This document shows positions 5,210-51,611 of a DNA stretch of 64,000 bases, in pieces (the first letter of the stretch is position 1; each line of letters begins with the position of its first letter). The stretch covers positions 1,798,001-1,862,000 of the forward strand of contig NZ_CP125947.1 of the NCBI RefSeq assembly GCF_030064165.1, read 5' to 3'. The stretch is from Comamonas resistens (GTDB taxonomy: Bacteria; Pseudomonadota; Gammaproteobacteria; Burkholderiales; Burkholderiaceae_C). A program made the position numbers and the translations under genes. The notes beneath the pieces are model-generated. The model did no database searches. It saw only the letters and a program-made list of their open reading frames with translations, and was not told where the DNA came from.

Positions 5210-6145
5210 TCAGTTGCTGGCGCTGGCAGCCAGCGAGGCGGGCAGGTCGCCCAGGCCGGTGCGGCCCTCGCCACCCAGGGCCTCAATCAGATCGGGGATT
5301 AGGCGCGACAGCTCACCGGTGGCAATGGCCACATCGGTGTCAAAGCCGGCATCGTCCTGGCTGTTGCCGTCCATGACCGCATCCAGCAGCGTGATGTTCT
5401 TGATCTGCAGGCCTTCGGTCAGCACAAAGCTCACGCGGTCGTCCCAGGTCATGGCCAGCTTGGTGGGGCGCTTGCCGTGCTCAATGTGCTGGCGCACCTC
5501 ATCAATATCCAGCGGGTGGCGGGCGTAGCGCACCACGGCCTTTGATTCGTCGGCGGCTTTCAGCTCAGTCTCGCGGTCGGCGGTGAAGCCGGAGGGCGGC
5601 TCCTGGGTGATCAGCCAATGCGCCATGGCGGCCTGCGGGCTGGTCTGGGTGTCAAGCAGGGCCAGAGCGAAGCCGGGCAGGCCTTCGACCAGCAGCGTGA
5701 CCACCTCGTCGGCTCGGCCCTGGGCACTGGTATCGAGCACCAGGGTGCGGGCCTGCGGGTCGATCCAGACCCACATGCTTCCCTGCTTGGTGAACGCCAT
5801 GGGCAGCAGGTCCAGCTTGGCCTCGTCCTTGAGCTCTTTCTTCTCTTTCTTGCCAGGCTTGCGGCCCTCGGTTTTTTCGATGTGCTCGGCCTTTTCATTG
5901 ACCTTGCGGTTGAGCACGCTGGCCGGCAGCATTTTGGACTCGCTCATGAAGCGCATCACCCATTGGCCGGCCACGGATTCGGCCAGCGGGCCATGCTGTT
6001 CGCCACGCGGAGGCACCCAGCCCACAGAGCGCTCCTGCGTTGCACCACACTCGGCAAACACCGTTTTTTGCAGCGCCTCTTCCAGCACCTGCAGATCGCC
6101 CTGCCAGCTCTCGGCAATGCGATAAACAATCATGTTCTTGAACAT
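5210..6145 (-). CDS. rdgC: RdgC, recombination-associated DNA-binding protein
   Basis: RdgC forms a ring around duplex DNA and restrains RecA-driven strand exchange. The N-terminus MFKNMIVYRIAESW is the family signature, and the 311-residue length and middle region (LDLLPMAFTKQGSMWVWIDP, LALLDTQTSPQAAMAHWL) fit full-length RdgC. The start follows CTGGAG and overlaps a tiny upstream frame as TGATG. rdgC is normally a chromosomal gene; here it lies in a phage early operon with SSB-like and Sak4-like genes, so it probably serves phage recombination or blocks host RecA. A broken second copy lies at 48,880-49,043. Confidence 0.95.
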   Translation of the reverse strand: MFKNMIVYRIAESWQGDLQVLEEALQKTVFAECGATQERSVGWVPPRGEQHGPLAESVAGQWVMRFMSESKMLPASVLNRKVNEKAEHIEKTEGRKPGKKEKKELKDEAKLDLLPMAFTKQGSMWVWIDPQARTLVLDTSAQGRADEVVTLLVEGLPGFALALLDTQTSPQAAMAHWLITQEPPSGFTADRETELKAADESKAVVRYARHPLDIDEVRQHIEHGKRPTKLAMTWDDRVSFVLTEGLQIKNITLLDAVMDGNSQDDAGFDTDVAIATGELSRLIPDLIEALGGEGRTGLGDLPASLAASASN

Positions 6146-6165
6146 CAGGACTCCAGAAAAGAGAA

Positions 6166-6209: not shown

Positions 6210-6300
6210 TCATGGGCGCTCTTTCAGGCACTCGACGGTCTTGTCATCCAGCCACTGGGCATGCATGCCAGGACAGGCGAATTCATCGCGCGGGCTTTCT
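6210..6300 (-). pseudogene. Fragment of a small phage protein (CPGMHAxWLD patch)
   Basis: On the minus strand this encodes FACPGMHAQWLDDKTVECLKERP, closely matching the end of the lipoprotein at 9,151-9,405. An in-frame TGA sits just upstream and no good start exists before the internal ATG at 6266, so only 18 codons could be made. It is probably a remnant of a duplicated gene. A third, dead copy occurs at 49,480-49,560. Confidence 0.55.
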
Positions 6301-21627: not shown

Positions 21628-21701
21628 GCGGCTTTGGCCTATCGGTCGGGCATCAGCCTTCCAAGCTGAGGAGCCGGGTTCGATTCCCGGAAGCCGCTCC
21701 A
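21628..21701 (+). tRNA. Phage-encoded tRNA-Gly (TCC)
   Basis: Folds fully: acceptor GCGGCTT/AAGCCGC, D arm GCC/GGC, anticodon stem TCAGC/GCTGA with loop CTTCCAA (anticodon TCC), T arm CCGGG/CCCGG with TTCGATT, and encoded CCA. It lies in the late region between phage genes; the variable loop has 4 bases. It would read GGA, a Gly codon rare in GC-rich genomes. Confidence 0.9.
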
Positions 21702-48539: not shown

Positions 48540-48655
48540 AAAAGTCGGTGGTTTTTATGGGAATAAGGCTGCGAGAGCCGCGCCATAGCTACAGCCTAGA
48601 CGTTTCAAATATTCCCGCAAAGCGGCTGAAACCCGCATGGATGCTCAATTGTTAT

Positions 48656-48705
48656 GCGGACTTTTAATCCGTTGGTCGCGAGTTCGAATCTCGCAGGACC
48701 CACCA
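48656..48705 (+). other. Right attachment site: 3' part of a tRNA-Lys(TTT) gene
   Basis: GCGGA-CTTTTAA-TCCGT is a full anticodon arm, followed by the GCGAG/CTCGC T arm and GGACCC ACCA acceptor end. The 5' half is replaced by unrelated sequence. This is the usual outcome when a phage integrates into the 3' end of a tRNA gene. The intact tRNA-Lys should be at the other end of the prophage, outside the window. Confidence 0.82.
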
Positions 48706-48713
48706 GAATACTT

Positions 48714-48748
48714 AAGCCGCTACAGCTTTTAAAGCTGTAGCGGCTTTT
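48714..48748. terminator. Terminator following the tRNA-Lys fragment
   Basis: Fifteen-base perfect arms, AAGCCGCTACAGCTT and complement, then TTTTATG. It is the presumed terminator of the host tRNA gene. Confidence 0.85.
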
Positions 48749-48879
48749 ATGTTTTATTCCCGCAGTGGAAGTGTGCGTCACTTCGGGAAAGTGTGTTTAG
48801 AACCCCTTGATCGCTTGCACTCCTGTGCTGTGGTGGCGGTATTGGCACGCAATTCCGGCAGGCTTCCGTGCTTTTCCTT

Positions 48880-49043
48880 GTTCGGTCAGCGGACCATGCT
48901 GCTCGCCACACGGCGGTGCCCAGTGCTACAGAGCGTTCCGGCACCGCACTCGATAAATACCGTCTTTTGCAGCGCATTCTCCAGCACCTGCAGATCGCCT
49001 GCCAGCTCTCGGCAATGCGATAAATGATCACGTTTTTGACCAT
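48880..49043 (-). pseudogene. 5' fragment of a second rdgC
   Basis: ATG 49043 opens MVKNVIIYRIAESWQ, very near to MFKNMIVYRIAESWQ of the prophage rdgC. A missing G in TGGCAGG(G)CGATCTG shifts the frame; in the other frame LQVLENALQKTVFIECGA matches. Similarity fades by 48,880, so only about 55 codons remain. Confidence 0.85.
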
Positions 49044-49183
49044 GAGGGTTTCGGAAAACAAAGCTCGTTGGCAGCGGGGTGGGATATGAATGGGGTAGGA
49101 AAGTGGCAATTCAACAAACACTTACAAGAGAGCGCGTGCGGCAGGATTAGCCTGAGAAAACTCCAATTTTTCAAGGAGTTACC

Positions 49184-49411
49184 ATGAAATCCCTACTTTT
49201 AATTGCTGCAGTTGTTGGTGTGCTGGCGGGTTGCTCGATGATGCCGGAGCGGGATTCCGGGCGCATGCATGACCAACGTGCCGACCAGATGATGGGAGGC
49301 AGTGATATTCGCTATGAATGGGGGCGTGGGGCATATCAAGGCCCAGGCAGCATGCCGCAGTGGTCCGGCGGGGATGACACTTCTGGAGGCCTTGGCTGGC
49401 GCCATGATTAA
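49184..49411 (+). CDS. Small lipoprotein, 75 aa
   Basis: MKSLLLIAAVVGVLAGCSMM with the lipobox LAGC at Cys17, then a polar part rich in Met, Gly, Asp and Trp (GRMHDQRADQMMGGSDIRYE). TCAAGGAGTTACC precedes the start. Its intact reading frame among fossils suggests selection. Function unknown; it would be anchored in the outer or inner membrane. Confidence 0.78.
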   Translation: MKSLLLIAAVVGVLAGCSMMPERDSGRMHDQRADQMMGGSDIRYEWGRGAYQGPGSMPQWSGGDDTSGGLGWRHD

Positions 49412-49479
49412 TCACAGCAGAACTGTATCTTGCGCAACCAGTTGGCGCACCGATGTTTCGTGCCAGGCACCTCAAGGTG

Positions 49480-49560
49480 CTTCTTTCAGTCACTGCACGG
49501 TCTTGTCATCCAGCCACTCGTGCAGGCCCGGGCAGATGAATTCATCGCGCTGGCGTTTGA
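49480..49560 (-). pseudogene. Dead copy of the CPG-patch phage frame
   Basis: Reads RDEFICPGLHEWLDDKTVQ then TGA in place of the TGC codon, then LKEAP. It matches the 6,210-6,300 region of the prophage at most DNA positions. The wider stretch 49,412-50,269 contains no other confident gene, only a leftward hairpin at 49,901. Confidence 0.65.
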
Positions 49561-49745
49561 CCAGCGCTGGTGGTTCGTCGGTTTGGACATTGGGTGCGGG
49601 CAGCAGGACGCCAACGGATCGCCAGCAGGGAGTCAGGAATCGTTTTCTGCATGAGTCGTCTCCAGCTTTGCATGGAATATCGGTGTAGCGCTTATTGGAA
49701 CGGCGCTGGAGGCTATCAAATTTGATGATTCAAAGAGGTCAGGCC

Positions 49746-49850
49746 TCAAGCGTGAGAGATCAGCATGGCCGCGCCGACCAGGCAGAAGAGGGCGAAGCCG
49801 ACTAGAAGCCACTGAGCTTTCAGTCTGCGGCCTGAATTGGGGATTGGTAA
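49746..49850 (-). CDS. Possible short membrane peptide (low confidence)
   Basis: The end of a longer leftward frame codes NSGRRLKAQWLLVGFALFCL then VGAAMLISHA, a convincing basic-plus-TM segment. No clear start or ribosome site exists downstream of the terminator at 49,901, so it could be the remnant of a membrane gene. Confidence 0.25.
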   Translation of the reverse strand, partial: LPIPNSGRRLKAQWLLVGFALFCLVGAAMLISHA

Positions 49851-49900
49851 GTACAGGGCTTGGGTACGTGGTGGTGCATGCGATCCGATGAGCAAAGAAA

Positions 49901-49925
49901 AGCCCGCGAGCGGTTGCTGCGGGCT
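49901..49925 (-). terminator. Leftward intrinsic terminator in the fossil region
   Basis: AGCCCGC/GCGGGCT with TTTTCTTTG on the minus strand, the same style as the hairpins in the prophage early operon. Confidence 0.55.
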
Positions 49926-50269
49926 TGAATAAAGAACCGATGCCCTTTTGAGGAATGCCAGGGGAAGTGATTGAGAGGGAGGGAGGAGATTCCCTGGCTC
50001 GGTTTGAAAAGATGGATGCTGTTGTACACCATTTGGCATGACCACGGTTCGTCGTCGACGCGCTGGCCGCGCTGAAGATCGTAATTGCCGCTTGCCCTGG
50101 ATTATTTCAGGGCTCAAATGTTTGTCTGAGTGGTCATGGCTGATGGTTCTGCTCTATCGCAGCGAGCATGGGCGCATGTTTGGGTGGTTGAAAATGTCTT
50201 ACAAATTGGCCGCGGGTATTTTTTGCTCGAGGCTTAGATTTGAAACGTCTACCAACTAGAGAGAAAACT

Positions 50270-50443
50270 ATGAAAAAACTGATTGCCTTTGCTGCCGCAG
50301 CGCTGATGCTGACTGGCTGCGTCATTGCGCCCCCGTATTACGATAACGGGCGTGGGCATGGCCGCGGCAACGGCCAAGGTCAGGATTACGACGATGGCGG
50401 CTATCACTGCCCTCCAGGTCAGGCCAAGAAAGGTCGCTGCTGA
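50270..50443 (+). CDS. Small Gly/His-rich lipoprotein, 57 aa
   Basis: MKKLIAFAAAALMLTGCVIA with lipobox LTGC, then PPYYDNGRGHGRGNGQGQDY and CPPGQAKKGRC. Short lipoproteins ending CPPGQAKKGxC are common in betaproteobacteria and of unknown function. AGAGAGAAAACT precedes the start; the 10 codons upstream are not used. A terminator follows at 50,488. Confidence 0.85.
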   Translation: MKKLIAFAAAALMLTGCVIAPPYYDNGRGHGRGNGQGQDYDDGGYHCPPGQAKKGRC

Positions 50444-50487
50444 TCAGATCAGCGACATCGTCGTTGTTCGCATCCCATCCAAAAAAC

Positions 50488-50520
50488 AAAGCGTCCTTGA
50501 TTGAGGGCGCTTTTGTTTTT
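50488..50520 (+). terminator. Intrinsic terminator after the lipoprotein gene
   Basis: AAAGCGTCCT and AGGGCGCTTTT arms (one wobble pair) then TTTTGTTTTT. Confidence 0.7.
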
Positions 50521-50722
50521 GGCCCCGCACTTGGCGCCTATGGCAGCAGCGGGTGGTTGCCGCGACGGATAAGACCTAGAAAGGCGGGTTAATTAAAGTC
50601 AGGCAAAACCAGCCTGTTGGAGATGCAGGCAAAAAAGCCCGCACTATGCAAGCTGTCTCAGATTGCGGTTTAACAACCAAAGGAGGAGCATTCAGGTATC
50701 ACGCACTTCAAGGAGAGCGGCG

Positions 50723-50818
50723 ATGTCTACCTTCATGTTGCAACTGGTTGGTCTGTGGATCGTGATGGTGCTCGTGGCCTTGGTGATCTACGAGGTCAGG
50801 GACGATTGGCAGGCGTAA
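50723..50818 (+). CDS. Small membrane protein, 31 aa
   Basis: MSTFMLQLVGLWIVMVLVAL followed by VIYEVRDDWQA: one TM helix with a charged tail, in the manner of CydX-like or similar small proteins. AGGAGAG lies at ideal distance before the ATG. Too short for usual ORF cut-offs. Its host is the flanking region between the prophage fossil and rimO. Confidence 0.6.
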   Translation: MSTFMLQLVGLWIVMVLVALVIYEVRDDWQA

Positions 50819-51398
50819 AAAGGCCCATCCCTTGTTTTGCCGGGCCATATTCGGTTGGGTTGGGTGTTTTGTATTGTGTGGAGCACCATGGAGTCGAGTC
50901 CGGCGGAAATGGCTGTTCGGGCAATGCACCCCACATCTTCGCTTGGAATCGTCCTAGTCAGGTAGCCGTTGAGCGGCCATAGCAAGCACTTGCCGTTGCG
51001 CAGCTTTGCCTCCATGTCGCTTGGCCTAGTTTGGCTGCCCCGTGCCTGAACGCGTCCAGCTTCATGATCTCCGATCAAGGGTGAAATATTCCTGTCACAT
51101 GGGCGAGGCATGATGCATATCGCTGGGTTCTGGTTGTAGCACTGAAAGATGGCTTGACCCCTGGCGCCAATTCCAGAGCCCCTGCCGAGATGGTGGGGGC
51201 TTTTTCATTGCCGGGTGGCCCAAAGTGAAAAGTATCCCCTTCTCGACGGGGTAGCGATCCACATGTAGTGGGGGTGTGGGGCATTTCCCAAGGCCGTCGC
51301 GGAGCATGGGCTTGAAAGGGCGGCAAGGCCTTTGTGGGAGCCCGGTGGTAAAATGGCGCGATAAATCTGCTGGATCCGCGTTGAGGCTGGATTGTGAA

Positions 51399-51447
51399 AT
51401 GGATGCTGAGTCCGTTGGTTGCGAGCTTGAGTTTCGCAGGACCCGCT
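51399..51447 (+). pseudogene. Decayed tRNA-Lys 3' end (old attachment site)
   Basis: TCCGTTGGTTGCGAG and TTTCGCAGGACCC align with TCCGTTGGTCGCGAG and TCTCGCAGGACCC at 48,668-48,701. The T arm is disrupted and the anticodon loop lost. ATGGATGCT upstream is also shared with the 48.64 kb site. Confidence 0.72.
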
Positions 51448-51456
51448 AGATGACAG

Positions 51457-51488
51457 GCGCTGCAGCTCTTGATGCTGTAGCGCTTTTT
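51457..51488 (+). terminator. Terminator after the decayed tRNA end
   Basis: GCGCTGCAG/CTGTAGCGC, TTTTTCG; similar in sequence and place to the terminator at 48,714. Confidence 0.7.
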
Positions 51489-51611
51489 CGTTTATCTCTT
51501 TGTTGTTCGCTTTGGCTCCAGGTGAGCCTGAACGATGAGGTTGCGCTTGCTGATGGAGTGGCGGAGCCGCCCTCTGTGTGAACCTGGCGCTAGTGCTGCT
51601 GGAAAAATCAA

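Follow-up and report, generated by a model that had tools for sequence, protein, structure and literature searches.

Serial phage occupancy of one tRNA-Lys gene in Comamonas resistens: an intact prophage beside the very probable remnant of an older relative

The tRNA-Lys locus of Comamonas resistens

The stretch analysed here, referred to as the window, covers 64,000 nucleotides of Comamonas resistens (positions 1,798,001 to 1,862,000 of contig NZ_CP125947.1, C1:1798001-1862000), in a genome of 5.3 Mb on three contigs. The locus in question lies between two host genes that we take to be tcdA, from its ThiF domain, and rimO, from its UPF0004, radical SAM and TRAM domains (Pfam search). Read from tcdA, the order of its elements is tRNA-Lys gene, prophage, tRNA-Lys 3' half, a 2.8-kb segment hereafter called the fossil, a decayed tRNA-Lys end and rimO. 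With high confidence, we interpret the fossil as the collapsed remains of an older, related prophage that had entered the same tRNA-Lys gene and beside which a later relative inserted.

ARAGORN detects no tRNA-Lys within the 64-kb window. An intact tRNA-Lys(TTT) is found at C1:1796132-1796207, about 1.8 kb outside the left edge of the window, and is directly followed on the minus strand by a gene encoding a tyrosine integrase of 346 amino acids (aa; PHROG 1, E 9e-45); both genes are thus where an earlier sequence-only reading of the window had supposed them to be. PHROG and Pfam searches further identified genes for an RdgC exonuclease, a large terminase, and portal, coat and tape-measure proteins, and the resident element, about 50.5 kb long, has the appearance of a complete tailed-phage prophage. 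It ends, as that reading had it, at a tRNA-Lys 3' half (48,656-48,705, plus strand) identical at 50 of 50 bases to positions 27-76 of the intact gene; this right attachment site (attR) is also the left attachment site of the fossil. The nearest integrase in the phage collection is that of Burkholderia phage Magia (MT701587 / NC_070954; 51% identity over 99% of the length), which is not close enough to call the resident the same phage, and the resident coat protein is at most 58% identical to any in the collection, the best match there being annotated as P22 coat-protein 5 family. A tRNA-Gly(TCC) gene is also found inside the intact prophage (window 21628-21701). Our search of the literature returned nothing on a Comamonas prophage at tRNA-Lys.

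Phage remnants between the two tRNA ends

Past attR stands a terminator with a GCCGCTACAGCT stem (48,706-48,755, plus strand), which the left-end alignment leads us to read as phage-supplied, followed by the 3' end of a tyrosine integrase of the resident's kind (48,778-48,881, minus strand; blastn and translation), whose last 33 codons are open up to the stop. This portion (48,706-48,881), integrase 3' end and downstream terminator, had escaped the earlier reading. Together with the tRNA end, it aligns by blastn over 226 bp (48,656-48,881) with the tRNA end, terminator and integrase 3' end of the resident (L009 6158-6383), the identity being 81% with the tRNA included and 76% outside it. At 48,881 the integrase remnant is fused to a 5' fragment of rdgC (48,881-49,058, minus strand; 80% to window 5978-6160, E 1e-41) that is frameshifted according to alignment and frames, with an overlap at the junction of at most 1-2 bases as read by eye. 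Then comes the remnant of a stretch (49,481-49,557, no strand assigned; 82% to window 6220-6298, E 4e-16) labelled "CPG patch" in the earlier reading, a name used here provisionally. The three remnants keep the order and orientation they have in the prophage, and the alignment with the left end of the prophage bears out what had been proposed for rdgC and the CPG patch.

Further to the right, two blocks (49,884-50,118, plus strand; 85% and 76%) and another one with the 31-aa membrane-peptide frame P3 (block 50,634-50,809, plus strand, 88%; frame 50,723-50,818) are collinear with an element occupying the same tRNA gene in a relative, G021. The fossil keeps no integration genes: beyond the 33 open codons, no longer integrase frame is found among the open reading frames listed. 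A search for tandem repeats returned none. Two side observations concern these remnants. Several relatives carry the 176-bp block at 50634-50809 elsewhere in their genomes (71-88%), in the manner of a mobile cassette. The C. resistens genome contains another remnant of this phage family (L010 4890-6262, C1:3154890-3156262), collinear with 48,881-50,112 at 72-77%; close to it are what the sequence suggests to be an integrase-like fragment and infA.

The homologies of the fossil to prophage parts reach E-values of 1e-58. When 48,706-51,400 was shuffled in two-base blocks, none of 100 shuffles matched the prophage or the G021 occupant at E<=1e-3, while the real sequence gave 12 such matches, two of them being inverted terminator-hairpin matches. 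This level of similarity speaks against the segment between 48.7 and 51.4 kb being ordinary conserved chromosome whose tRNA-like stretches arose by chance, an idea to which the sharing of 51.1-51.6 kb with two relatives might lend some appeal. It is already refuted by the absence of the segment from the empty sites of G046 and G028 described below, and we give it practically no credence.

The outer tRNA end and terminator at rimO

The right boundary of the fossil consists of three parts, all on the plus strand. The phage arm of the older insertion (51,346-51,410) was delimited in the right-end alignment and matches G011 (235 columns) and G021 (154 columns) at 71-72%. It is followed by a decayed tRNA-Lys 3' end (51,411-51,447) and by a terminator with a GCGCT stem (51,448-51,493), the stem type of the empty sites, displaced together with the tRNA end. 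The stretch 51,411-51,493 matches the attR tRNA end and its terminator at 77% over 87 nucleotides (nt; E about 3e-11), in agreement with the decayed tRNA end and similar terminator that had been reported near 51.4 kb. Much of the core is gone from the outer site, which on this sequence is unlikely to be a functional attachment site.

Two kinds of terminator can be told apart by their stems. On the rimO side the stem is GCGCT in all ten right ends and in both empty sites, and among the aligned left ends it is GCCGCT in eight of nine, G024 being the exception. Taken over its whole stretch, the displaced terminator is equivocal in identity (79% to G028, 72% to G046, 73% to the phage type), so that its assignment depends on position and stem type; these make the host's original tRNA 3' end the best interpretation of the 51.4-kb copy.

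A nine-base sequence, ATGGATGCT, had been taken as an upstream sequence kept at both sites. It occurs at 48,637 and 51,399, at unequal distances from the core (31 and 12 nt), and four times in the window as a whole; a scan of one strand of the stretches from 13 relatives did not find it. As a shared homologous arm it was rejected, being out of register in the right-end alignments, where it falls in the decayed core and not in the arm; the alignments offer no evidence for it as a kept sequence. Sharing of any 9-mer between two 51-nt stretches is seen in only 0.4% of shuffles, which counts against the rejection; the latter therefore rests on the alignment register.

Empty, occupied and decayed states among relatives

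The locus was compared across 53 genomes of the genus, numbered G, with G000 the genome that holds the window. rimO was located in 51 of them (not in G027 and G033), as was tcdA (not in G032 and G033), and the two genes lie on one contig at most 54 kb apart in 11 genomes: G000, G007, G011, G021, G023, G028, G046, G047, G048, G049 and G050. They are on different contigs in G041, G044 and G045, and the contig of G027 ends early; in the other genomes they are far apart, split over contigs, or one is missing.

G046 and G028 hold empty sites, where tRNA-Lys and its terminator are followed by rimO after 155 and 166 bp, respectively. In eight of the nine occupied one-contig intervals, a displaced tRNA-Lys 3' end or terminator stands beside rimO, and in G023 the displaced end adjoins the split-off rimO start. 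Other relatives carry parts of the fossil between the intact tRNA-Lys and the displaced tRNA end. In G027, which lacks this prophage, tRNA-Lys is followed by an integrase 3' remnant (68%) and by a counterpart of P2, a small lipoprotein gene of the fossil, in the same order. Integrase remnants after tRNA-Lys are also present in G048 and G050, with no integrase above the search threshold there. The first 117 bp of the fossil, 50 of which are tRNA, are 95% identical to the left end of G050. As a separate observation, G011 has beside its tRNA-Lys a C-terminal fragment (L101 1355-1519) of a different tyrosine integrase, named from sequence, hinting at yet another past occupant.

The most informative relative is G021, in which a 24-kb element with an integrase 78% identical occupies the same tRNA, to be compared with the 2.8 kb of the fossil. 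Collinearity with it extends over the attachment site and six direct blocks, fossil positions 48,656, 48,881, 49,481, 49,884, 50,029, 50,634 and 51,346 corresponding to G021 positions 1,690, 7,848, 8,398, 9,223, 9,430, 12,117 and 25,389. From this alignment the fossil reads as a G021-like element cut down to 2.8 kb. The G021 occupant was inspected only as a list of frames, which revealed no structural phage gene, and it may itself be reduced.

At the level of sequence, these comparisons establish the homology to prophage parts, their order, the empty sites and the displaced ends. The fossil has what is expected of a prophage remnant integrated at a tRNA gene, with tRNA-end repeats at both bounds, degraded phage genes and empty sites in relatives. 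The earlier proposal that it derives from a relative that entered the same tRNA gene is supported by module order, empty sites and displaced ends, and comparison with relatives lacking the prophage, of which two are empty and others hold parts, argues that the segment is not conserved chromosome.

Several observations weigh against this interpretation. At the threshold used, none of the displaced tRNA ends is seen in G049. Taken by itself, the tRNA core of G011 and G047 does not rise above background, and only the flanking alignment reveals it. The left end of G024 carries a GCGCT stem beside an intact integrase. Moreover, the G011 and G047 locus holds other cargo and lacks the blocks that precede 51.1 kb, so that 48.7-50.9 kb and 51.1-51.5 kb could stem from two older insertions, as weighed below.

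Origin and age of the fossil

The locus could have been built as follows. The 3' end of tRNA-Lys(TTT) between tcdA and rimO would first have been entered by an older temperate phage whose integrase was of the resident's kind. Because the phage attachment site supplies a tRNA 3' half and terminator, a working tRNA would have been left on the tcdA side, while the original tRNA 3' end and its terminator would have been displaced towards rimO and left to drift. The older prophage would then have shrunk to 2.8 kb through deletions, among them the one that joined the integrase 3' end to rdgC, and a later relative would have entered the restored tRNA gene, which would place the newer prophage nearer the tRNA and the fossil outside. 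We infer this order of events, the singleness of the older insertion and deletion as the mode of shrinkage.

A fossil with the genes and order of the prophage's left end might instead be that very end, duplicated by recombination between homologous stretches with no separate infection. Such a duplicate fits poorly with an identity to the resident copies of only 76-82%, when the first 117 bp are so much closer to the left end of G050, and with the presence of a displaced tRNA end whose type is that seen beside rimO. P1 (a second small lipoprotein-like gene), P2, P3 and the blocks at 49.9-50.1 kb have no resident match better than E 0.1, and they do match G021, G027 or other relatives. We consider such a duplication very improbable.

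A more serious competitor to a single collapsed prophage invokes at least two older insertions. The outer arm and the tRNA end, both shared with G011 and G047, would go back to an ancient one, and the integrase, rdgC and CPG remnants to a later one whose own right end was lost. G011 and G047 indeed share 51.1-51.6 kb with the window and, left of that and the tRNA aside, only a 42-bp lipoprotein-end match in G011; the different integrase-like fragment beside the G011 tRNA and a species tree that does not unite G000, G011 and G047 point the same way. Conversely, the whole fossil is collinear with the one G021 occupant, and no third tRNA-Lys 3' fragment is detectable above background inside the G000 interval or the fossil. 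On balance we regard two older insertions as possible, though rather unlikely.

The tree of right ends groups G000 with G011 and G047 (98%), apart from a group formed by G007, G023, G044, G048 and G050 and from G021 and G041, whose tRNA ends are almost intact. This suggests, tentatively, that the insertion predates the split of G000, G011 and G047 and that at least two other occupations took place. A tree from rimO and tcdA was poorly resolved, and rpoB and gyrB were therefore added, the deep nodes staying weak. The resulting four-gene tree (15 taxa) has no G000/G011/G047 clade, with supports of 55-90 at the nodes concerned; as this tree, with its weak deep support, does not recover the trio, the dating remains tentative.

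Relation to known layered elements

Layers of decayed elements at one site are a known pattern. For integrative and conjugative elements (ICEs) and integrative and mobilizable elements (IMEs), a review (PMC5704250) describes accretion as integration, decay of the first element and integration of a second one at a shared site, and states that tandem partners can be prophages and that they are as a rule decayed elements. These three steps match the present locus, where a newer element sits at a site shared with a decayed one. Compared with the accretion described there for ICEs, IMEs and cis-mobilizable elements, both partners here are phages, and the outer site is decayed, making cis mobilisation unlikely. 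For Dehalococcoides, one study (PMC3146451) reports serial islands at ssrA bounded by repeats of the RNA-gene 3' end, some of them without integration modules. The likeness lies in the serial occupancy of one RNA gene; that system relies on a serine recombinase and a tmRNA gene, whereas here we find a tyrosine integrase, tRNA-Lys, phage and a decayed outer repeat.

The present locus offers a well-resolved case of serial phage occupancy, since empty, occupied, decayed and doubly occupied states are all found among relatives, and the order of prophage decay can thus be read from a single site, with the displaced tRNA end as the marker of a layer. Less expected are a candidate small RNA (sRNA) and the cargo that has been kept. 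The conserved cargo, including an sRNA family with no Rfam match, provides specific candidates, open to experiment, for genes that persist after their phage has decayed.

Retained lipoprotein genes and a candidate small RNA

The view of the fossil as dead holds for its phage part, with rdgC frameshifted, and appears to fail for a small lipoprotein gene and for the candidate sRNA. P2 (50,270-50,443, plus strand) is an intact lipoprotein gene of 57 aa, 86% identical at the protein level to its counterpart downstream of tRNA-Lys in G027. Of 171 sites, 37 differ between the two, third positions accounting for 29 of these, and the ratio of nonsynonymous to synonymous rates (dN/dS) is 0.03, equal to that of the rimO control, in a single comparison whose dS of 2.4 is saturated. 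By these codon differences P2 is under purifying selection. Its Pfam match to LPAM_1 (E 0.0026) is below the family cut-off. P1 (49,184-49,411, plus strand) is an intact small lipoprotein-like gene of 75 aa with no Pfam match and with relatives at other loci, 76-79% identical in five genomes and 60-70% in four more; its dN/dS of 0.35-0.50, in six comparisons with copies elsewhere, is weaker evidence of selection than that for P2.

The candidate sRNA (51,119-51,205, plus strand; 87 nt) was delimited from alignment, pair counts and a model. It has two stems, the second being a terminator, and is represented by 17 copies in 13 of the 53 genus genomes. The long first stem is nearly invariant, the terminator hairpin follows, and 99.3% of alignment cells pair. 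Compensatory changes beyond chance, as sought in a structured RNA, occur on the terminator helix: nine cells have double changes against 2.3 expected, a value reached by none of 500 shuffles, and four pairs have them against 1.8 expected, reached by 15 of 500, the structure having been derived from the same alignment. Helices 1 and 2 show no double changes in the 17-copy alignment. A one-base gap in the conserved part of four of the 17 copies argues against a peptide. Nine copies adjoin a tRNA-Met(CAT) and a tenth is preceded by tRNA-Met and tRNA-Gln; several, that of G047 included, follow a CsbD-like frame, named from sequence.

A PhoB box consists of two 7-bp repeats 4 bp apart, located 10 bp before the -10 hexamer. 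The best TTGCCAT-N4-CTGTCAT-like site stands 22 bp before the body of the RNA in all 17 copies and is followed at 10 bp by a CAAGAT-like hexamer, a layout that we take to be that of a PhoB box. The match is 9-12 of 14 positions over the 17 copies, which are related and hence not independent. In the window, the Pho-box-like promoter reads GTGAAAT-N4-CTGTCAC-N10-CATGAT (51,081-51,114, plus strand), its first half being weakened, and matches at 10 of 14 positions (7 of 500 shuffles are as good); the G047 copy matches at 9 of 14 (30 of 500). The promoters of these two copies may be fading.

In its general form of stem and terminator hairpin the candidate resembles Rfam sRNA families, and Rfam 15 gives no match with E<=1 over 51,119-51,205. 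Three weak Rfam matches at 48,621-48,747 were discarded as far below gathering scores. No match to the candidate was found in viral contigs, phages and plasmids, the viral scan being for one exact 36-base pattern. In a sample of 399 genomes of the family, searched with stricter filters, eight match the model, only G000 and G047 strongly (about 100 bits); the other six (E 1e-4 to 8e-4, 29.5-33 bits) were taken as chance. For a C. testosteroni strain, 216 and 472 sRNAs are reported in a published study (PMC10637631), and the candidate may be among them. From its sequence, 51,119-51,205 is probably an undescribed small RNA; among the collections searched, its strong matches are confined to this genus. 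A broader picture, in which the phage part decays and small cargo is kept, with 51,081-51,205 as a genus-restricted sRNA under PhoB-type control in phosphate starvation beside tRNAs and integrated elements, P2 under selection and layering as a process that leaves working regulatory and envelope genes, is proposed here with more doubt than conviction.

Other integrations at rimO

The start of rimO itself appears as a second integration site in G023 (L112-L114), in G049 (L115-L117) and probably in G045. In G023, about 40 kb part the old rimO 5' end from the rest of the gene; the two sides have a short stretch in common, and the element supplies a different upstream sequence.

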